Assembly: GCF_001570925.1 (NCBI RefSeq)
Contig: NZ_BCSP01000005.1
Span: 62,001 to 126,000 of the forward strand
Length of the DNA stretch: 64,000 nt
From: [Zimmermannella] bifida NBRC 103089
Lineage (GTDB): Bacteria; Actinomycetota; Actinomycetes; Actinomycetales; Microbacteriaceae
Direction of reading: 5' to 3'
Part shown: positions 1,675-22,086 of the stretch, one piece after another
How the letters are laid out: each line of letters starts with the position of its first letter
How positions within the stretch are numbered: the stretch's first letter is position 1
Notes under the pieces: model-generated
The model's database searches: none
Seen by the model: only the letters and a program-made list of their open reading frames with translations
Told to the model about the DNA's origin: nothing
Program-made: the position numbers and the translations under genes

Positions 1675-3539
1675 TGACTTCAGACCTCGTTGCTGCCCCG
1701 GTTGATGTGTCTTCGCCATTTGGCGGTCTGCTGGTAATTGAATCTGGTGCTGATCTTGCCGAAGCAATCGGCAATGGTGACTGGGCGATGGGTGTGCTTG
1801 CCGGTGCCGGTTTTGCCTTGGACGCAGTTGCGACCGTGATCGACCCACTCGGTTCGGTTATCGCGATGGGGATTGGTTGGGTGCTCGAACATGTCGAGCC
1901 ACTCAAGTCGTGGTTTAACGAACTCACCGGTGATGCCGGCGAAGTTGCCGGGTTCGCACAGACGTGGGCGAACATCGGAACCCACCTGCAGACTGCCGGT
2001 CAAGAACTCTTGAACTCGCTCAATGAGGTGCAGGACCTCACCGGCGAGACCATGAACGCGTACCGTCAGCTTCATACGGACGCGGCAAATCACGTGATCG
2101 CGGCTGGTGGCTGGTCGAACGGAATTAGTGGCGGCATGCAGGCCGCGTCGACAATTGTGCAGATTGTGCACGAAGTGACCCGTGATGCACTGTCCGAGGT
2201 TGTGGGCACCGCAATTTCAGCTGCGATTGAAACGGCTTGCACATTTGGACTGGCAACGCCGCTGGCGATTTCGCAGGTTACGACCAAAGTTGCGGCGTTG
2301 TCGGCCAAGGTTGGCCGCTATGTTGACGATCTCTTGGCCTCGATTCGCAAGCTTTCGAAGCACCTGGATGAGCTCATGGCGCTTATTGAGAAGGCTGCGG
2401 GTGCGTTCCAGTCGGCAGTTCGCGGCGGCAACGGGGGCCCAATTCCTGCGACTGCAGGTGGTCCAAACGCTCCGGGGTCGACGTCAAATCCGAATGCACC
2501 CTCGACGCCCGGCGGCTCGTCAAGTGGACCATCGACTCCGGGCGGGGCACCAAGCGGTCCAGCAACGCCAGGCGGATCAACATCCCCGAGCTCGCAAGAT
2601 TCGCCAACACCAGACCAGCCGGCGAACCCTGACGGGCCATCATCGACTGACGCAGCGGGTAGCTCGAATGCGCCAGACTCAACGCACCCCTCCGACGCGA
2701 AACCGGACGCTGCAGAGGGGGTGGAGTCGCCAAACTCATCCGAGGCGGCTTCGACGCCTCCGGAAACGACCCCTAATCGGGGAGACCGAGAACGGCTTTA
2801 CGATGACGGCAACATTCCTGAGGATTTGAAGGAGCATGCGAATGCACGTCAAGAAGCTGTCGATACCGCAACCGAGACACAACAACGGTTTGACGAAGAC
2901 CTAGGTGCGTTCAACAAGAGCCTCAACGAAGCAGGGTTGGGGGATATCGAAGCGAACCCTAAGGATTTCACCCAAAGAAACATTGATCGTACGGTAACGA
3001 AATACCAAGACCAGCTCGAAGACTATCCAGAGCTTCAAGAACAGTTCGATGACCTTCGGGACCTGCAGGCCGAAAGGCGCGAGGCGTTGGCAAATCAGCG
3101 CGACGCAGGTGAGGCGTTTGGTGAAGCAGCAGGTGAGGTAGCCGCTCGAGAGCACGGATTGGAGCCGGTCCTGACAGATCGCAATGCAGGGACTGGAACA
3201 TTTGATCAGGTTTATAAGAGCCCGGATAATAGCTCTCTGGTCATTCAAGAGGCTAAGGGGCCATCAGCAAGCCTCGGTCCTCGAGACGCTGTCATCGACG
3301 GGGTGAAGGTTGAAACTAGGCAAGGGTCTGAGGCGTATCTCTACGATGTATTACGTCACGATGAGGGGCTCCGGCAGGCGGTTCTGAACGATGAAAAGTT
3401 GGCTCAGGGTCTGCTTGACGGCTCTACGAAGCTTGAGTATCGGATGGTGAAGCCAAATGCAGATGGCGTAGTGACGATCACGAACTTCGAGATTGACACA
3501 AATAAAATGGACATTGAGGGATGGCTGACCGGTAAATAA
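1674..3539 (+). CDS. Polymorphic toxin with C-terminal PD-(D/E)XK-type nuclease domain
   Basis: This 621-residue protein has three parts. Residues 1-250 are alpha-helical with apolar segments, as in WXG100/LXG-type targeting regions, although no canonical WXG motif is present. Residues 250-370 form a low-complexity linker with repeated TPGG units rich in Pro, Ser, Gly and Asp. Residues 370-621 begin with a charged coiled coil (375-490) and end with a compact domain from about 497. That domain contains GTGTFDQVYK (D511), LVIQEAKGP (E526-x-K528) and RQGSEAYL (549-556). An Asp followed by a beta-strand E-x-K and a Q-G-x3-Y helix is typical of restriction-endonuclease-fold toxins. I infer a secreted DNase (or RNase) aimed at competing bacteria. 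GC drops to about 47% in a sampled 60-base stretch of the tip, against 60% in the N-terminal part, which fits tip exchange. Confidence 0.8.
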   Translation: MTSDLVAAPVDVSSPFGGLLVIESGADLAEAIGNGDWAMGVLAGAGFALDAVATVIDPLGSVIAMGIGWVLEHVEPLKSWFNELTGDAGEVAGFAQTWANIGTHLQTAGQELLNSLNEVQDLTGETMNAYRQLHTDAANHVIAAGGWSNGISGGMQAASTIVQIVHEVTRDALSEVVGTAISAAIETACTFGLATPLAISQVTTKVAALSAKVGRYVDDLLASIRKLSKHLDELMALIEKAAGAFQSAVRGGNGGPIPATAGGPNAPGSTSNPNAPSTPGGSSSGPSTPGGAPSGPATPGGSTSPSSQDSPTPDQPANPDGPSSTDAAGSSNAPDSTHPSDAKPDAAEGVESPNSSEAASTPPETTPNRGDRERLYDDGNIPEDLKEHANARQEAVDTATETQQRFDEDLGAFNKSLNEAGLGDIEANPKDFTQRNIDRTVTKYQDQLEDYPELQEQFDDLRDLQAERREALANQRDAGEAFGEAAGEVAAREHGLEPVLTDRNAGTGTFDQVYKSPDNSSLVIQEAKGPSASLGPRDAVIDGVKVETRQGSEAYLYDVLRHDEGLRQAVLNDEKLAQGLLDGSTKLEYRMVKPNADGVVTITNFEIDTNKMDIEGWLTGK

Positions 3540-9741: not shown

Positions 9742-10092
9742 ATGACTACGGTGCGCGTGAAATCGGTGCGTGACGAACCCGCATCGACCGACGGGTACCG
9801 CATCCTCGTCAATCGGCTTTGGCCGCGCGGTATCAGTAGAGAACGGGCCGCGATCGATACCTGGTGCAAGGACATCACGCCCAGTACCGAGTTGCGCAAG
9901 GACTACCATGCCGAACGCATTGACTTCGAGGTGTTTCGCGAGCGCTACCTCGACGAAATTACCGAGAACGCGGCAGCCGCGGCCGAGTTTCGCGCGCTCG
10001 TTGCCGAACAGGGCACGGTCACGCTTGTCTACGACTCCAAGCTCGAAAACAACCACGCCACCGTGCTGCGCGAATGGCTGGCGAACGAATGA
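9742..10092 (+). CDS. DUF488 family protein
   Basis: The ATG at 9742 gives 116 residues that match small DUF488 proteins: YRILVNRLWPRGISRERAAI, then WCKDITPSTELRKDYHAE, FRERYLDE, and GTVTLVYDSKLENNHATVL near the end. The function of DUF488 is unknown. The stop overlaps the next ATG by four bases (ATGA at 10089-10092), so it is probably translated together with the aminodeoxychorismate lyase-like gene and is the first gene of a para-aminobenzoate operon. Confidence 0.88.
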   Translation: MTTVRVKSVRDEPASTDGYRILVNRLWPRGISRERAAIDTWCKDITPSTELRKDYHAERIDFEVFRERYLDEITENAAAAAEFRALVAEQGTVTLVYDSKLENNHATVLREWLANE

Positions 10093-10835
10093 CGGCATGC
10101 AACGCGACCGGCGGTGCGATGTCGCTACCCGCACCGATTTTTGAGTCGTTTCTCGTGCTCGACGGGCGCGTGACGGCATTTGACCTGCACGTTGCGCGAT
10201 TTACCGCAGCGGTCACCGATGCGTTTGGTGCCAACGTCGCCGCGCAGATTCCCGCGGTCGTGGCCGAGCTTCGTGCCGGATGCGGTGCGGGCGCGCGGTT
10301 TCCGAAACTTGTCGCGACACCCGACGGCGTGCACTGGCAAGACCGCCCGGCACCACCCCGCACCGCGACGCTAACGGTCGCACCGCATCCGGTAACCGAC
10401 ACCAGAATGCATCCCCAATTCAAGGGACCAGAGCTTGCCTGGCTGCAGGAACAGATGGCCGCAGCAGGCAACGATGTTGTGCTCGTCCGCGACGGCGTCG
10501 TTGCCGAAACCGCGACCGCGGCCATCCTCGTTACAGAGGACTCACACGGCGGGGCGGGCACGCGCATCCTGACCCCAAACGCGCCCGCACTCGCCTCGAC
10601 CACGCTTGCCTGGTTCGCCGCGACCATTGCCAAACCCGAACGCGCCGCGATCACCTGGCACGAGCTATCTGCTGCCGCGGCGGAAGGCCGCGCCGTTGCG
10701 CTGAACGCGTTGCACGGCCCGCGCACGCTGCAGATTCGCGGCATCGAACCACCGGCATTGCTCGCGCGCGCAGCCCAGCAGCGCGCCGATGCTTGGCGTG
10801 AGCGCTGGTACTCCGACGGGCAGCCATGCACATGA
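10089..10835 (+). CDS. pabC: Aminotransferase class IV, aminodeoxychorismate lyase-like
   Basis: The chosen ATG at 10089 overlaps the previous stop (ATGA) and gives 248 residues; ATG 10119 (MSLPAPIFESFLVLDG) is an alternative. Class IV fold elements are visible: an N-terminal F-D-L-H-V-A-R-F segment, the probable PLP lysine in MHPQFKGPELAW (about 108-119), and VVAETATAAILV in place of the usual E-x-x-x-x-N-I/L cofactor loop. PabC converts 4-amino-4-deoxychorismate to para-aminobenzoate and pyruvate for folate synthesis. The next gene, which overlaps by ten bases, encodes the enzyme making that substrate, which strongly supports the assignment over a branched-chain aminotransferase. The Gly-Gly-Ala insert near residue 155 is unremarkable. 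Confidence 0.78.
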   Translation: MTACNATGGAMSLPAPIFESFLVLDGRVTAFDLHVARFTAAVTDAFGANVAAQIPAVVAELRAGCGAGARFPKLVATPDGVHWQDRPAPPRTATLTVAPHPVTDTRMHPQFKGPELAWLQEQMAAAGNDVVLVRDGVVAETATAAILVTEDSHGGAGTRILTPNAPALASTTLAWFAATIAKPERAAITWHELSAAAAEGRAVALNALHGPRTLQIRGIEPPALLARAAQQRADAWRERWYSDGQPCT

Positions 10836-12901
10836 CCCGGTTACTGTGCATCGACTTTCACGACTCGTTCACCTACAACCTGCGCGACCTCGTCGTGCAA
10901 GCCAGCGGTATCTTGCCCGAGGTCGTGCCCTTCGATGATCCGCGACTTACTGCGGCCTTCCTCGCTGAATTCGACGCGATCATCCTCTCACCTGGACCGG
11001 GCGACCCGAACAATCCTGCCGATACCGGCCGCATCCCGCAGCTCATTAGGGCCTATCAGGGGCCGGTGCTCGGAGTCTGCTTCGGCCACCAAATTCTCGC
11101 GCTCTTGAGCGGCGCTACCGTCGGCCGCATTACGCCGCAGCACGGCTACTGCTCGACCCTGCGCGTTCCCGAAGCCACGAACCCCGGTGCGGTGATCGTG
11201 CGCGACGGTCAGCAGGTCGTTCGCTACCACTCGCTCGCCATCACCGGTGGTACGCAGCGCCTCATCGTTGACGCGGTGGCCGAAGACGGCAGCATCCAGG
11301 CCATCCGGGTACCCGACCGACGCTGGTGGGGCGTGCAATTCCATCCCGAATCGGTGAAATCCCAAGACGGTATCGCGCTCATCAAGCGGTGGATGCACGC
11401 CGCCGCGCTCACCCAATCGGTCACGTCCCAAACGCCATCGGTTACGGCCACCGCACCACAGCCCGTCGCTTCCGATCAACCCGCGCCACCAGCAGGTCGC
11501 AACGTCCCGCTCCACTGGCGCGAAATCCCCAGCCCGCGCCGCACCGCGCCCGAAGCGTTCACGGCCATTGCTAACGGTGCCAGTGCCGCTTTCTGGCTCG
11601 ACAGCGCCGCACTAACGGCCGGCGCTCGGTGGTCGTTCCTCGGTCTGGCGGGCGAAGTGCTCACCGCCGACGCACACGAAGTGACGGTGCGGGATGCCGA
11701 CGGCCGCGTCACTGCCCGCGAACCGGGCGGCGCGATCGCAGCGCTACGACGCCGGGACATTACGGGAGTAGGTGGGCCCGACGGTGTGCCGCTACTCGGT
11801 GGCTGGGTCGGCGCGCTCGGCTACGAGGCCCGGCGTGAATTCGGGTTTGCAACCACCAAGACACCCAACGAGCCCGAGGCAATGTGGCTGCGTGCTTCGC
11901 GCTACCTGGCATTCGATCACGAGTGCGGGCGCGTGTGGGCGATTGCGGAGGTGCAGGGACCGGCGGCAGAAACGTGGCGACCCGCTGCGGCATGGGTTGA
12001 CGCCATTACGCAGTGGATGCAGACGCCGGAAACGGAAACCGAAGCGGCGCCGCGGCTGCCTGCGGGGCAGCTTGACCGCATCCGCCAACTGCCAGAGCAC
12101 CGCGCCGCCGATGACGCCCGCTACCGTGCACTCGTTGCGCGAGCGCAGGAATCGCTGCACGCCGGCGACTCATACGAGGTCTGCCTGACGACGACGGCCG
12201 AGCTCGACATCGACCTGACGCCCACCGAAACGCTGGCCCTGTACCTGCAGCAGCGGGCCGCGAACGCCGCACCGTACGCCGCGTACTTGCGGGCATTCGA
12301 CACGGCCATTATGTGCTCGTCACCGGAACGCTTTCTGCAGATTCGCGACGGCTTCGTCGAAACGAAACCAATCAAGGGCACCGTTGCGCGCAGCGAGGAT
12401 GCAGCAACCGACGCGCAGCTTCGCGAGTGGCTGCAGCACGACGCCAAGACCGGTGCCGAACTGCTGATGATCGTCGACCTCTTGCGCAACGACCTCTCAC
12501 GCGTGTGCGTACCGGGCAGCGTCGTGACGCCGGATGCGGCAATCGTTGAAACGTACGCCACCGTTCATCAGCTACTCGGACGCGTCTGCGGCCAACTGCC
12601 TCCGGAGGCGAACCCCTGGGATGCGATCGCCGCGGCATTCCCGGGTGGATCAATGACCGGCGCACCCAAAGAACGAACCTGCGACATCATCGACGAACTC
12701 GAATCGCGCGCTCGCGGGTTCTATGCCGGCACGCTCGGCTACGTGAGCGGCAAGACCGCCGACCTGAACATCATCATTCGTTCATTGACGTACCACGCGG
12801 GGACGCTGCGTGCCGGTGCCGGGGGAGCCGTGGTGCTCGCATCCACACCCGAAGGCGAACTCGACGAGATGCTCGTTAAGCTCCGCGCCGCGATTCCCTA
12901 A
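10826..12901 (+). CDS. pabB: Fused aminodeoxychorismate synthase (PabA-PabB)
   Basis: This 691-residue fusion (or 689 from ATG 10832) has a glutamine amidotransferase domain at about 1-195, with LSPGPGDP, the nucleophile C85 in GVCFGHQ, and VQFHPES. A linker rich in Ala, Pro and Thr (195-225) leads to a chorismate-binding domain ending at 691. In that domain KPIKGT marks PabB, because anthranilate synthase has Ala in place of this Lys. AFPGGSMTGAPK and GFYAGTLGYV are also present. The enzyme aminates chorismate with glutamine-derived ammonia, the first step to para-aminobenzoate and folate. It overlaps pabC, completing a compact operon. Confidence 0.93.
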   Translation: MHMTRLLCIDFHDSFTYNLRDLVVQASGILPEVVPFDDPRLTAAFLAEFDAIILSPGPGDPNNPADTGRIPQLIRAYQGPVLGVCFGHQILALLSGATVGRITPQHGYCSTLRVPEATNPGAVIVRDGQQVVRYHSLAITGGTQRLIVDAVAEDGSIQAIRVPDRRWWGVQFHPESVKSQDGIALIKRWMHAAALTQSVTSQTPSVTATAPQPVASDQPAPPAGRNVPLHWREIPSPRRTAPEAFTAIANGASAAFWLDSAALTAGARWSFLGLAGEVLTADAHEVTVRDADGRVTAREPGGAIAALRRRDITGVGGPDGVPLLGGWVGALGYEARREFGFATTKTPNEPEAMWLRASRYLAFDHECGRVWAIAEVQGPAAETWRPAAAWVDAITQWMQTPETETEAAPRLPAGQLDRIRQLPEHRAADDARYRALVARAQESLHAGDSYEVCLTTTAELDIDLTPTETLALYLQQRAANAAPYAAYLRAFDTAIMCSSPERFLQIRDGFVETKPIKGTVARSEDAATDAQLREWLQHDAKTGAELLMIVDLLRNDLSRVCVPGSVVTPDAAIVETYATVHQLLGRVCGQLPPEANPWDAIAAAFPGGSMTGAPKERTCDIIDELESRARGFYAGTLGYVSGKTADLNIIIRSLTYHAGTLRAGAGGAVVLASTPEGELDEMLVKLRAAIP

Positions 12902-16904: not shown

Positions 16905-17342
16905 TTAGTGCTGCGTGAGCTCTTCAATCAGCGCGAGCACACGACGGTCAATGTCGTCGCGCACCAGTCGCATCCGTTCTTCGCCATCGATACCGCGTAG
17001 CGACGGCTCGTCGATCTCCCAAACCACGGCTGGGTGGCGCAGCTCGAGCGCCGGGTCGAGCTGCGCTTCAGTACCAACGAGCACGATGCGATCCATGCGT
17101 GCCGTCAGCGCCGGGTCCATGGGCTTCGGGATTTCGCCGGCCATGGATGCACCGAGTTCAGCAACGCTTTCGGCCGACAGCGCGTTGATGGTGCCGCCAG
17201 GTGTTGGCGCAGTACCGGCCGAGTGAATCTCTAAGGTATCGCCCGCGTGCAGCCGTGCCAGGGCGGCGGCCATCTGCGATTTGCCACCGTTCTTGACGCA
17301 GACAAACATGACTGCGGGTTTCGCGGCTGGGGTGTTGTTCAT
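16905..17342 (-). CDS. arsC: Arsenate reductase (arsenate-mycothiol transferase type)
   Basis: This 145-residue low-molecular-weight phosphatase-like protein has the active loop FVCVKNGGKSQMA, with C15 as nucleophile and Lys21 in the usual Arg position. That variant is typical of actinobacterial ArsC enzymes, which attach mycothiol to arsenate and rely on mycoredoxin. It continues with HSAGTAPTPGGTIN and ends with an acidic helical segment. It lies 60 bases downstream of the arsenite pump gene on the same strand, an arsenic resistance operon in which ArsC feeds arsenite to the exporter. Confidence 0.9.
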   Translation of the reverse strand: MNNTPAAKPAVMFVCVKNGGKSQMAAALARLHAGDTLEIHSAGTAPTPGGTINALSAESVAELGASMAGEIPKPMDPALTARMDRIVLVGTEAQLDPALELRHPAVVWEIDEPSLRGIDGEERMRLVRDDIDRRVLALIEELTQH

Positions 17343-17402
17343 GGTGAAGTCCTTTGATCGTGAGTGCTGGGCTGATGGTGAATTTTGGATACGTGGTCGG
17401 CG

Positions 17403-18554
17403 TTAACCACGCGGGGCACGGTCGGGGAGCGCGGCCTTGGCATCAGCTGGTTGCGGATGCGGGAAGTTGCGTCGCAGTGCAAGCGATACGTAGACGAGCG
17501 CCACGAGAATCGGCACTTCGATGAGCGGACCGACAACGCCGGCAAGCGCTTCACCCGAAGTGACACCGAACGTGCCGATAGCGACGGCTATGGCGAGCTC
17601 AAAGTTATTGCCCGCCGCGGTGAATGCGAGGGTGGTCGTGCGCGCGTACGACATGTGCAGCAGGCGTCCAGTCAAGTAGCCGGCTCCCCACATGATGGCG
17701 AAGTAGCACAGCAGCGGCAGCGCAATTCGCACCACGTCGAGTGGGCGACTGGTGATCTCGCCACCTTGCAGCGCGAACAGAATCACAATCGTGAACAGCA
17801 AACCGATCAGCGCGAACGGCGAAATCACCGGCAAGAAGCGCGACTCATACGCTTCGCGGCCAGCGCGGGCCTCGCCGATTCGGCGCGAGAGGTAACCAGC
17901 CAACAGCGGAATGCCTAAAAAGATCAGCACCGACTTGGCAATTTGCAAGGGCGAGGCGTCAAGGCCCTGAGTTGGCAAGCCCAGCCACGAGGGCAGGACA
18001 TCGAGATAGAACCAGCCGAGCACAGCAAACATCAGCACCTGGAATACCGAGTTGATCGCGACGAGCACCGCGGCAGCTTCGCGATCACCGCAGGCCAGGT
18101 CATTCCAGATAATCACCATGGCGATGCAGCGGGCGAGGCCAACGATGATGACGCCGGTGCGGAACTCGGGAAGATCCGGCAGGAACAGCCATGCCAGCGC
18201 AAACATGATCGCGGGGCCGAGTACCCAGTTGAGCACGAGCGAGGATGCGAGCAGCTTGCGGTCGTGCGTGACGGTGTCGAGTTCGTTGTATCGCACCTTC
18301 GCAAGCACCGGGTACATCATCACGAGCAACCCGATCGCGATTGGCAATGAGACGCCGTCGATCTCGATTGCGGCGAGCGCGTCATTGAGCCCCGGAATAA
18401 ACCGGCCCAGTGCGAGCCCAGCGAGCATGGCCAGCAAGATCCAGACCGGTAGGAATCGGTCAAGTGCCGAGAGTTTTGGGGTTTCGCTGGATGCGGTGCT
18501 CGAGGCAGCCGCGGACGTCGCGCAGCTTGTGGCCGACGATGGCGATTCAGGCAT
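17403..18554 (-). CDS. acr3: ACR3-family arsenite efflux transporter
   Basis: From ATG 18554 the protein has 383 residues; an earlier ATG at 18587 would add 11. After a Ser/Ala-rich N-terminus it shows ten apolar segments. Family motifs are MMYPVLAKVRYNEL, LNWVLGPAIMFALAWLFLPD, the Cys-containing LARCIAMVIIWNDLACGD (the thiol thought to bind arsenite), and FTAAGNNFELAIAVAIGTFG. ACR3 exports As(III) using the proton gradient. Oddly, no ArsR repressor gene lies in the operon or beside it. It is upstream of arsC on the same strand. Confidence 0.93.
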   Translation of the reverse strand: MPESPSSATSCATSAAASSTASSETPKLSALDRFLPVWILLAMLAGLALGRFIPGLNDALAAIEIDGVSLPIAIGLLVMMYPVLAKVRYNELDTVTHDRKLLASSLVLNWVLGPAIMFALAWLFLPDLPEFRTGVIIVGLARCIAMVIIWNDLACGDREAAAVLVAINSVFQVLMFAVLGWFYLDVLPSWLGLPTQGLDASPLQIAKSVLIFLGIPLLAGYLSRRIGEARAGREAYESRFLPVISPFALIGLLFTIVILFALQGGEITSRPLDVVRIALPLLCYFAIMWGAGYLTGRLLHMSYARTTTLAFTAAGNNFELAIAVAIGTFGVTSGEALAGVVGPLIEVPILVALVYVSLALRRNFPHPQPADAKAALPDRAPRG

Positions 18555-18647
18555 AGGGCAATTCTCGCGTTCGGCATCCGGCATCACAATGGCGAATCGC
18601 CGCCATTATTCCGCTATTGGCGTTTGCTCGGGCAGCACGTCAAGTTA

Positions 18648-19559: not shown

Positions 19560-19601
19560 AACGGTGGGCTGGATGCGAATACCTGCATCCAGCCCACCGT
19601 T
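19560..19601. terminator. Perfect 17-bp bidirectional terminator
   Basis: AACGGTGGGCTGGATGC (19560-19576) pairs without mismatch with GCATCCAGCCCACCGTT (19585-19601) around an eight-base loop. TATCTT follows on the plus strand and a T-rich tract (complement of AAAACAA) on the minus strand. It separates the convergent methyltransferase and ddh genes. Confidence 0.8.
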
Positions 19602-19620: not shown

Positions 19621-20580
19621 TTACAGCGTTGACGCTACGAGGTCATCAAGCGACTTCGGCGAGAGGAGGTATGGTGCCACCTCAAATGGCGTGATTGCAC
19701 CGACGGTGCCCTGCGCCCGCAGACGAGCTGCGGCACGGCCGTAGGCGACCATGACGGCACCGGTGAAGTCAGGGTTGCGGCCGAGCTCGAGCTCGAACGA
19801 AACAGCGTTGTGCGAGTCAACGAGCTGACCGGCGGTAATAACCTGGCCACCGTGCGGCATGCCGGTGTGGTTGGCTTCGAACTCTGCTTCGCTCACGAAT
19901 TCAACCGTGGTGTCGTAACCGACGAAGTAGTCGGGCATGGTCACGATGGTTTCGCGGATGCGGTCGTGGTCGGCGGCGTCGGCCACGATGACACACTGAC
20001 GCTTGTGCGCCGCCTTCGGGTCAACCGGCTGGCCGGCCTTAGCGGCTGCGACGGCGTCTTCGCTCGGCACGGTGTACTGCACGCCGCGCTTGACGCCTTC
20101 AATGCGGCGGATGGCATCGGAGTGGCCCTGCGATACGCCAAGGCCCCAGAACGTCGCCTGCTGCGGCTGTGGGAACAGCGATGCGGCGAGCACGCGGTTG
20201 AGCGAGAACAGGCCCGGGTCCCAACCGGTGGAGATCAGCGCGAGGTTGTCGCCTTCCCGTGCAGCCGCATCCATCTTGGCGCGGTGCTCAGGAATGAGGT
20301 TGTGGTTGTCGTAGGTGTCGACGGTGGTGAACTGCTTCGCAAACGAAGCGGCCTGTGCTGGCATGTCCGTGGCGCTACCGAGGCAGAGGAAGAGCACATC
20401 GACTTGGTCGCGATGTGCGGCAATGTCATCTACCGAAAACACCGGGGTCTGGGTGTCGAGCGAGTCGCGGCGCGAGAAAATACCGTGCAGGTCCATGTCG
20501 GGCTGCTGGGCGATCAGTGCTTCGACACTGCGGCCGAGGTTGCCGTAGCCGACAATGCCGGCGCGGATATTGGTGGTCAT
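19621..20580 (-). CDS. ddh: meso-Diaminopimelate D-dehydrogenase
   Basis: The 319-residue protein starts at ATG 20580 with AAGGAC upstream. It begins IRAGIVGYGNLGRSVEALI (NADP-binding Rossmann fold), then has LCLGSATDMPAQA, TVDTYDNH, and ISTGWDPGLFSLNRVLA, all signatures of Ddh. The enzyme reductively aminates tetrahydrodipicolinate to meso-diaminopimelate in one step, bypassing the succinylase route for lysine and cell-wall precursor. It lies 35 bases behind trpB on the same strand with no hairpin between, so it is probably co-transcribed and may be subject to the trp attenuator upstream of trpB. A strong terminator follows it. Confidence 0.94.
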   Translation of the reverse strand: MTTNIRAGIVGYGNLGRSVEALIAQQPDMDLHGIFSRRDSLDTQTPVFSVDDIAAHRDQVDVLFLCLGSATDMPAQAASFAKQFTTVDTYDNHNLIPEHRAKMDAAAREGDNLALISTGWDPGLFSLNRVLAASLFPQPQQATFWGLGVSQGHSDAIRRIEGVKRGVQYTVPSEDAVAAAKAGQPVDPKAAHKRQCVIVADAADHDRIRETIVTMPDYFVGYDTTVEFVSEAEFEANHTGMPHGGQVITAGQLVDSHNAVSFELELGRNPDFTGAVMVAYGRAAARLRAQGTVGAITPFEVAPYLLSPKSLDDLVASTL

Positions 20581-20615: not shown

Positions 20616-21872
20616 TTAACTGCGGCGGGCTGCGAGTCGTTCGGCAACAAAGTCAACGTCTTTGTCGCCGCGGCCCGAGAGGTTGGCGATGACGATGTCA
20701 TCGCTCGAGAGCGTCGGCGCAAGCTTGCAGGTGTAAGCAATGGCGTGCGACGACTCGAGGGCAGGAATAATGCCTTCGGTGCGCGAGAGCGTGCTGAACG
20801 CATCGAGGGTTTCGTTGTCATCAACCGAGACGTAGGTGACTCGGCCGAGGGTCTTGAGGTGCGAGTGCTGCGGGCCAACACCCGGGTAGTCGAGGCCAGA
20901 CGCGATCGAGTGCACTGGCGAAGGCTCACCCTGTTCGTCTTGCAGCACGATGGTCTTCATGCCGTGCAGGGTGCCGGGGGTACCAAGGGTCATGGTTGCG
21001 GCGTGACGGGTGCCTTCGAGGCCTTCGCCGGCTGGCTCGACACCGAAGATTTCGACCTCGCGGTCATTGAGGAAAGCGTCGAACAGTCCCATGGCGTTTG
21101 AGCCACCGCCAACGGCAGCGACCAGGGCATTCGGCAGTCGACCTTCTGCTTCGAGAATCTGCGCACGGGCTTCGCGACCGATGATTGACTGGAAATCCCG
21201 AACCATCGACGGGTAGGGGTGTGGGCCCACAACGGAGCCGATCGCAAAGAAATACTCGTGGTACTTGGCGGCATAGGTTGCAAACGCCGAGTCAACGGCC
21301 TCCTTGAGCGAACGGCCGCCTTCTTCCACGGCGACGACCTTCGCGCCGAGCAGCTCCATGCGCACAACATTGGGGTGCTGCTTGGCAACGTCAATGGCGC
21401 CCATGTGAATTTCACATTCGAGGCCGGTCAGCGCGGCCGCGGTGGCGAGCGCAACACCGTGCTGACCCGCGCCAGTTTCGGCAATGAGCTTCGTCTTGCC
21501 CATGCGCTTGGCGAGGAGTGCTTCACCGAGGCAGTGGTTGATCTTGTGCGCACCGGTGTGGTTCAGGTCTTCGCGCTTGAGGTACACCTTGGCACCGCCG
21601 AGCTTGGCGGTGAGGTTCTCGGCAAAGTACAGCAGCGATGGGCGGCCAACGTACGTGCGCAGCAATCGCTCGTACTCGCCCATGAACGTCGGATCCTGGC
21701 GGGCTTCCGCATACGCATCCCGAACCTCAGCAATCGGCTCGACCAAGAACGGCGGCAGCTCGGCGCCACCGAATTCGCCGAAGTATCCGTCGTCGTTGGC
21801 GCGATACTGCGGGTTCGGCACGTGCTGCGTTGCGGCGGCGTCGGCGGATGCGTCGTGTTGGGTATCAGTCAA
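20616..21872 (-). CDS. trpB: Tryptophan synthase beta chain
   Basis: The TTG at 21872 is preceded by AAGGAG and gives 418 residues, typical for TrpB with a 30-residue polar N-terminal extension. Motifs in order are the PLP lysine K110 in [19 protein letters not shown], the phosphate-binding [17 protein letters not shown], and ESSHAIAY. It joins indole to serine. Unusually, neither trpA nor any other trp gene is adjacent, so it must either pair with a distant TrpA or salvage free indole. Transcription appears controlled by a tandem-Trp leader peptide and attenuator between 21910 and 22007. The next gene, ddh, lies 35 bases downstream. Confidence 0.95.
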
Positions 21873-21909: not shown

Positions 21910-21982
21910 AAACCAAACGAATCGCCTCCGAAAAGGGGCGATTCGAACAGATTGCAATGTTGAAGAACCGCCTCTCAGGCGG
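21910..21982 (-). promoter_or_regulatory. trp attenuator: alternative hairpins before trpB
   Basis: On the minus strand four arms are visible. Arm 1 is CCGCCT (21982-21977), overlapping the leader stop. Arm 2 is AGGCGG, extended to GGCGGTTC (21972-21965). Arm 3 is CGAATCGCC (21945-21937). Arm 4 is GGCGATTCG (21926-21918), followed by a T-rich tract to 21910. Arms 1-2 form a 6-bp pause hairpin with a GAG loop. Arms 2-3 pair over eight positions with one G-U (antiterminator). Arms 3-4 form a perfect 9-bp terminator. The mutually exclusive pairing matches classical trp attenuation: stalling at the Trp codons frees arm 2 to pair with arm 3. Confidence 0.85.
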
Positions 21983-22007
21983 CCCACCAATTCCGTGCAA
22001 TTTGCAT
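21975..22007 (-). CDS. trpL: trp leader peptide with tandem Trp codons
   Basis: ATG at 22007 opens a ten-codon frame, MQIARNWWAA, ending at TGA (21977-21975). The two adjacent TGG codons lie five codons before the first arm of the attenuator is complete, which is the geometry needed for a ribosome starved of charged tRNA-Trp to mask arm 1. The stop codon lies inside the 1-2 hairpin loop region. No strong Shine-Dalgarno is visible, so expression may be modest. It is too short for ordinary gene finding and is supported by the hairpin set behind it and by trpB. Confidence 0.85.
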   Translation of the reverse strand: MQIARNWWAA

Positions 22008-22086
22008 GCTGAAAAGCGTAGCACCAGACACCCCGAAAACCGCGGCATATCGCGATTCACGCACACGAACGTGATTGCCGGTGCAC

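Follow-up and report, generated by a model that had tools for sequence, protein, structure and literature searches.

The window, as we call the whole 64,000-nucleotide stretch of [Zimmermannella] bifida DNA that was analysed, carries on its minus strand a ten-codon open reading frame, followed by four pairing arms and the T-rich tract TTTGGTTT, and then by trpB and ddh (Table 1). The first-pass annotation had read the first part of this arrangement as a classical trp attenuator with a tandem TGG leader and arms pairing 1-2, 2-3 and 3-4. This leader is indeed present, and the seven-base cores in the window form 7/7 standard pairs in each of the three helices, which are mutually exclusive. Both a short leader rich in Trp codons and such competing helices are expected of a ribosome-mediated trp attenuator. 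The spacing fits as well: with the Trp codons at leader nt 19–24, arm 1 at nt 23–31 and arm 2 at nt 35–43, a ribosome on the Trp codons could mask arm 1 while arm 2 stays accessible.

Table 1. Features of the leader region and the downstream genes (window positions)
Feature	Position	Strand	Remarks
-10-like hexamer TACGCT	22020..22015	minus	7 nt before leader ATG; candidate promoter for leaderless transcription of the leader
Leader ORF MQIARNWWAA, ATGCAAATTGCACGGAATTGGTGGGCCGCCTGA	22007..21975	minus	ten codons, tandem TGG, stop TGA
Arm 1 GGGCCGCCT	21985..21977	minus	overlaps second Trp codon and two Ala codons
Arm 2 AGGCGGTTC	21973..21965	minus	pairs with arm 1 or arm 3
TGCAAT, 3' side of outer stem	21956..21951	minus	partner is leader codons ATTGCA (22001..21996); extends 1-2 hairpin
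Arm 3 CGAATCGCC	21945..21937	minus	pairs with arm 2 or arm 4
Arm 4 GGCGATTCG	21926..21918	minus	with arm 3, predicted terminator hairpin, -17.4 kcal/mol
T-rich tract TTTGGTTT	21917..21910	minus	directly 3' of arm 4; same tract in congener G161
trpB, TrpB1-type, stand-alone	21872..20616	minus	TTG start, AAGGAG upstream; TIGR00263 565 bits, cut-off 392
ddh, meso-diaminopimelate dehydrogenase	20580..19621	minus	TIGR01921 411 bits; 35 nt after trpB
Candidate terminator after ddh	19601..19560	minus	17-pair stem; terminator scan

The T-rich tract that had been noted after arm 4 is there, but it is interrupted, and the candidate terminator of the leader, a strong 3-4 hairpin followed by this tract, is absent from the terminator-scan output. 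At least five consecutive T follow arm 4 in 16 of 23 Actinomycetota relatives. None of the Rfam covariance models (T-box, Trp leader and others) matched at its gathering score (best 17.7 bits vs 60), and at E ≤ 5 only chance-level matches appeared. A riboswitch or T-box reading of the leader was dropped because no model matched. A whole-genome search for the pattern ATG..TGGTGG returned 501 matches versus 403 for a reversed-pattern control and is uninformative alone; the attenuator model R1 has a single match in the window's genome, at this locus.

The attenuator region folds at -62.8 versus a shuffle mean of -49.6 (z -3.75), better than 200/200 dinucleotide shuffles; the opposite strand also folds well, because inverted repeats must. 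In the window, duplex energies are -17.4 kcal/mol for 3-4 and -12.5 kcal/mol for 2-3. When the RNA not covered by a stalled ribosome is folded with arm 4 included, the minimum-energy structure is 3-4 and not 2-3, and with arm 4 left out, 2-3 forms. Since the minimum-energy fold of the stalled state with arm 4 is 3-4, antitermination has to be kinetic, with 2-3 forming first, and in textbook attenuation antitermination rests on just this order. The outer stem is part of the computed fold of the region; its mean z over 25 loci is -1.81, with p ≤ 0.05 in 13 of them; in the window alone it is not significant (p 0.187).

A chance test was made for the start of the leader, counting ATG reading frames of 5–40 codons with adjacent Trp codons (WW) within 330 bases upstream, and TANNNT hexamers ending 6–7 nt before the ATG. 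A WW frame was found upstream of 33 of 83 stand-alone trpB genes, compared to 0.66% of 3320 dinucleotide shuffles. Frame and hexamer together occur in 30/83 loci, 1/3320 shuffles (0.03%) and 0/27 canonical trpB loci; the WW leaders of L064, L075 and L110 have no hexamer at 6–7 nt. This spacing is the distance a leaderless transcript would need. Because of its frequency at stand-alone loci against shuffles and canonical genes, the leader is probably leaderless, with a start predicted at its ATG. A consensus promoter scan at the window locus gave 0 promoters and no -35 partner.

The window trpB passes TIGR00263 and has the motif GLDYPGVGP plus a second, 12-residue motif, as in TrpB1; the TrpB2 model TIGR01415 reaches 157 bits versus a cut-off of 519. 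Congener G161 has ATG where the window gene has its TTG start. No trpA lies beside the gene at the locus. As ddh follows after 35 bases and no terminator-like match lies in this gap, trpB is probably not transcribed by itself but as a trpB-ddh unit; one weak five-pair terminator-like match falls inside the 3' end of trpB. The gene order of G161 is the same: upstream gene, attenuator, trpB, ddh. With trpB and ddh probably co-transcribed in this genus, Trp attenuation may also reach a cell-wall/lysine enzyme.

The genome (2.13 Mb, 37 contigs) also has a second, canonical trpB, 51% identical to the window gene, which adjoins trpA and has trpC beside it (named by eye). A trpEG fusion (TIGR01815 884 bits, cut-off 739) and a trpD over its family cut-off are found as well. 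The window trpB is therefore an extra copy, with trpEG, trpD and trpCBA elsewhere. The description of the target as a lone trpB has to be qualified, the gene being an extra copy beside a full trp set and likely sharing one transcript with ddh. Trp auxotrophy, raised by a TIGR00564 match below cut-off, was ruled out because the trpEG fusion passes TIGR01815. Elsewhere in the window lie an aminodeoxychorismate-synthase-like fusion of the PabAB type (10074-12901, plus strand) beside an aminotransferase-IV-lyase-like gene (pabC, by eye), and an ACR3 arsenite efflux gene (16908-18587, minus strand; TIGR00832, 437 bits), which adjoins a weak arsenate-reductase-like gene.

The nearest relatives of the window TrpB are found in Leucobacter, Microbacteriaceae. 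In a sample of 150 genomes of this family, identity of 72% or more to the window TrpB is seen in the window's genome and in three others, and the rest, among the matches listed, reach at most 56%. Among four genomes of the same genus, R1 matches G000 and G161, and not G020 and G100. The leader of G161 reads MHFTQAWWTA: arms 2-4 and the tail are kept, and the leader codons and the outer stem have changed together, both stem sides differing from the window and still pairing. The wider set of relatives consists of the best 80 of 568 matches from one scan of named genomes (loci L042-L121). Stand-alone trpB genes occur here in the actinobacterial Leucobacter, Boudabousia, Gleimia, Timonella, Tessaracoccus, Micrococcus lylae, Brachybacterium and [Zimmermannella] alba, and also in Paceibacterota, Nomurabacteria and many Gammaproteobacteria. 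A search with the TrpA of the window's genome detected trpA at 0/80 of these loci within the flanks (mostly 5 kb on each side), and at 27/27 canonical trpB loci. The first-pass annotation had let its reading depend on conserved arms in relatives, and leader and arms do recur upstream of related stand-alone trpB genes.

Covariation in relatives, another check proposed at the outset, gave a clear answer for two of the three helices. Across 24 Actinomycetota loci whose arms were placed by hand, 160/168 pairs are standard in 1-2, 140/168 in 2-3 and 164/168 in 3-4. The own pairs of 1-2 and 3-4 are better than 20000/20000 permutations, these permutations and the shuffle controls ignoring relatedness. 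In helix 1-2, 4/7 pairs have changed on both sides, with 94.8% of cells paired and 0/500 shuffles as good; in helix 3-4, 4/7 pairs and 19 cells have changed on both sides, with 97.4% paired. Helix 2-3 has one pair changed on both sides and no excess within the Actinomycetota (159/500 shuffles reach its paired fraction). Nor is there an own-pair excess for 2-3 in the 24 loci (6843/20000 permutations as good), because its core hardly varies. Across phyla, however, 2-3 does stand out: over 13 divergent, hand-picked loci (8 Patescibacteria-like and 5 from Actinomycetota) the energies of the own duplexes add up to -178.6, compared to a permuted mean of -120.9, with 0/20000 as low. In this hand-picked set, 2-3 pairing is locus-specific. 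The attenuator reading stands up to every comparative test that was run, except for the neutral 2-3 result within the 24 Actinomycetota loci.

In a quick, unrooted TrpB tree of 110 rows, with canonical rows from one family only, a branch with full support sets the 83 stand-alone rows apart. Ser occupies the bracketed position of the motif G(S)..GP[HN]P in 75/75 matching stand-alone rows (8 rows do not match), and Thr stands at the same position in 26/27 canonical rows. Within the stand-alone rows, a clade of 41 (support 84; Actinomycetota and Patescibacteria) holds 31 Trp-Trp leaders and one single-Trp leader; no such leader was found in its remaining 9 rows, among them L059, where the available upstream sequence amounts to 135 bases. 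One further Trp-Trp leader, in a Delongbacteria bin, occurs among the other 42 rows. Because a minimum of four changes on the starred branches of this tree is required to explain the distribution of the leader label, the leader has been lost or regained among stand-alone trpB lineages. In Austwickia (L065), the single-Trp leader MFADLSWRAT lies upstream of trpB with the arms kept, as in a weakened attenuator.

The position of the cassette in the chromosome varies. In seven Leucobacter-type loci it lies between fmt/rsmB and priA, on the other strand (names by eye); in the window genome fmt and priA are adjacent and the cassette lies elsewhere, and in the Gleimia loci it occupies yet another place. 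The predicted attenuator and its stand-alone trpB thus recur together at unrelated chromosomal places. Two Leucobacter-type loci have a LysE-family exporter gene after trpB on the same strand (L047:6182-6817 and L049:6240-6872; LysE was matched for L047 only).

Among 379 Patescibacteria genomes, 25 have a TrpB at E ≤ 1e-50. In 11 of these 25 loci trpA is absent within a flank of ~1.5 kb, and seven of the 11 have a Trp-Trp leader, compared to a WW frame in 1/14 loci with trpA (Fisher p 0.007); this single case looks like chance. Of the seven leader-bearing loci, L165 has a stop inside trpB and two are without the hexamer. Hairpins of this leader type were re-searched with a T-tail rule in 13 loci; a hairpin followed by a T-rich stretch was recovered in 12, and none in L160; by reading, arm 2 pairs clearly with arm 3 in 8/13. 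These loci share the layout of the window and have T-runs, with arm sequences unlike those of Actinomycetota.

When 20 genomes with a stand-alone trpB were searched, trpA and trpD were both over the family cut-off in the same 8, and neither was in the other 12, namely eight Patescibacteria-like bins, one Delongbacteria bin (with one trpA-like match of 21.7 bits) and three Gleimia/Actinomycetaceae. A Trp-Trp leader precedes trpB in 11 of these 12; in the twelfth, L059, the available upstream sequence is too short. The absence of trpA and trpD is provisional, since many of the genomes are bins whose completeness is not given. In the Actinomycetaceae it is difficult to ascribe to assembly, both genes being absent from all three genomes, of which two are named strains. 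In Patescibacteria, the stand-alone trpB likely serves indole salvage: in a cell that lacks another indole source, this TrpB would use external indole. In the Patescibacteria-like bin of L059, a beta-eliminating lyase gene (1702-3189; PF01212) follows the stand-alone trpB. It is possibly a tryptophanase, an enzyme that belongs to the PF01212 group.

The same type of attenuator is also found before other genes. R1 matches 21 of 199 genomes of the family, five times before a stand-alone trpB, 15 times before a PhzE-like gene and once before another gene, and 30 of 297 genomes of the order, with 2 stand-alone trpB, 21 PhzE-like and 7 genes not identified. PhzE-like is our own label; the best NCBIfam matches of this gene are anthranilate synthase models, far below cut-off. 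Based on these matches before trpB, PhzE-like and other genes, leaderless Trp-codon attenuators appear to be a general tool of these bacteria, of which the trpB case is one use; the matches before genes other than trpB were treated as context. The PhzE-like fusion gene is preceded by a predicted leaderless WW attenuator in many Micrococcales (L135-L147, L149, L150 and loci from the order-level set), with leaders such as MHTRLTQNWWPAS. At L148 (G089), the WW leader MHMTTAWWPTFSVG and a hairpin precede a 234-aa protein without NCBIfam match, methyltransferase-like by eye, and at L205 (G804) the WWW leader MTYMNRQWWWLA precedes a protein that resembles, by eye, an ABC-transporter substrate-binding lipoprotein.

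Taken as a sequence-based reading, the element is very probably a ribosome-mediated transcription attenuator which senses charged tRNA-Trp and controls the stand-alone trpB, probably together with ddh. Transcription would begin at or next to the leader ATG, so that the ribosome loads on a leaderless mRNA. If Trp is sufficient, the ribosome would pass TGG-TGG, reach the stop codon and cover arm 2, and the 3-4 terminator would form. If Trp is short, it would stall on the Trp codons and hide arm 1; arm 2 could then pair with arm 3 ahead of the synthesis of arm 4, and RNA polymerase would proceed into trpB. If the leader is not translated, the long 1-2 hairpin, outer stem included, would form and 3-4 would again terminate.

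The weak T tract TTTGGTTT of this genus could also point to a switch at the level of translation, where the leader ribosome governs the exposure of the trpB ribosome site instead of termination; that actinobacterial terminators are often without perfect T tracts was counted on the same side. However, the AAGGAG of trpB lies outside arms 1-4, and a hairpin with a T-rich tail is found in 16/23 Actinomycetota relatives and 12/13 Patescibacteria loci, which makes such a switch improbable. The weak tract would equally suit a relic, a non-functional attenuator left from a trp operon before a redundant trpB, as would the presence of trpEG, trpD, trpA and a second trpB elsewhere in the genome. Yet arms 2-4 and the tail are unchanged in G161 while the leader codons have changed, stand-alone trpB genes at unrelated sites carry the element too and the trpB frame is intact, so a relic hardly deserves belief.

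A short leader RNA or peptide acting mainly in trans, with attenuation as its source, would resemble rnTrpL/peTrpL of Sinorhizobium meliloti, and the window leader does look leaderless, like trpL of S. meliloti (PMC7298713). The residues other than WW vary widely, though, and an activity in trans would add to attenuation rather than replace it; as the main function it is very unlikely. Ribosome-mediated transcription attenuation remains the preferred reading, in agreement with the first-pass annotation.

The textbook role of trp attenuation is to switch an entire biosynthetic operon. Here, it appears coupled to just one enzyme, which joins indole and serine, at unrelated places and, in 12/20 genomes, where trpA and trpD were not found. 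The recurrent pair of switch and gene in pathway-poor genomes suggests a controlled indole rescue. We lean slightly towards a travelling indole-salvage module of Actinomycetota and Patescibacteria, in which a leaderless attenuator and a TrpA-free TrpB outlive the trp pathway. If true, Patescibacteria would gain their first described trp attenuator, and attenuation would govern the scavenging of a neighbour's indole rather than biosynthesis. The regulation of indole scavenging by Trp charging, and ribosome-coupled control of transcription in the ultra-small Patescibacteria, would become testable once the module is confirmed. The set of stand-alone TrpB enzymes is also of practical interest for making Trp analogues. 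It is the comparative picture, and not the single locus, from which the interest rises.

According to Seliverstov et al. (2005; PMC1262725), trp attenuators are predicted in Actinomycetota (Corynebacterium, Streptomyces) before trp operons and trpS. The window element is like these, whose leaders have two or three UGG codons, in its Trp codons, alternative arms and complementary triples of the GGCC/GCC type; their terminator with a U tract would correspond to the 3-4 hairpin and the interrupted T-rich tract of the window. The nearest precedent is the pair of predicted Corynebacterium diphtheriae attenuators before trpB1EDGC and trpB2A (PMC1262725). The remark of the first-pass annotation that control of a lone trpB is unusual thus needs amendment, attenuators before a trpB-first operon having been predicted already. 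Unlike in those operons, no trp gene follows here, and the trpB belongs to the stand-alone group. In C. diphtheriae, the trp leader MTNMNAHNWWWRA stands directly before trpB1, like the window leader before its trpB; it precedes a trp operon, in contrast to the window, and within the part available no start site was found for it, while the ilvB leader is leaderless (PMC5784534). The trpL of S. meliloti is also leaderless, its mRNA beginning with ATG, and controls trpE(G) (PMC7298713); the window leader, of a predicted leaderless type too, differs in its target, and no kinship in sequence is claimed.

On the enzyme side, the window TrpB is TrpB1-type like plTrpB and the reconstructed LBCA TrpB (PMC11917138), with PDB 5ey5 as its best PDB sequence match. 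By motif reading, the Ser of G(S)..GP[HN]P would be LBCA residue S187. Six residues define stand-alone activity of the LBCA type (PMC11917138), and by motif reading only S187 and M280 are clear in the window protein. The indole salvage by TrpB1/TrpB2 of Thermococcus kodakarensis (cited in PMC11085991) likewise involves an extra TrpA-free TrpB, able there to take up indole; that enzyme is of the TrpB2 family, whereas here TIGR01415 falls far below cut-off. The trpB motif, a riboswitch candidate of Firmicutes and Fusobacteria, is a terminator-bearing leader sometimes placed before trpB as well, but occurs in other phyla and is described, in the part available, without a leader ORF (PMC11109978). 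In searches of open-licence literature, no attenuator on a stand-alone trpB and no trp attenuator of Patescibacteria was found. The recurrent pairing of a putatively leaderless attenuator with a stand-alone trpB, including that in Patescibacteria, looks new.
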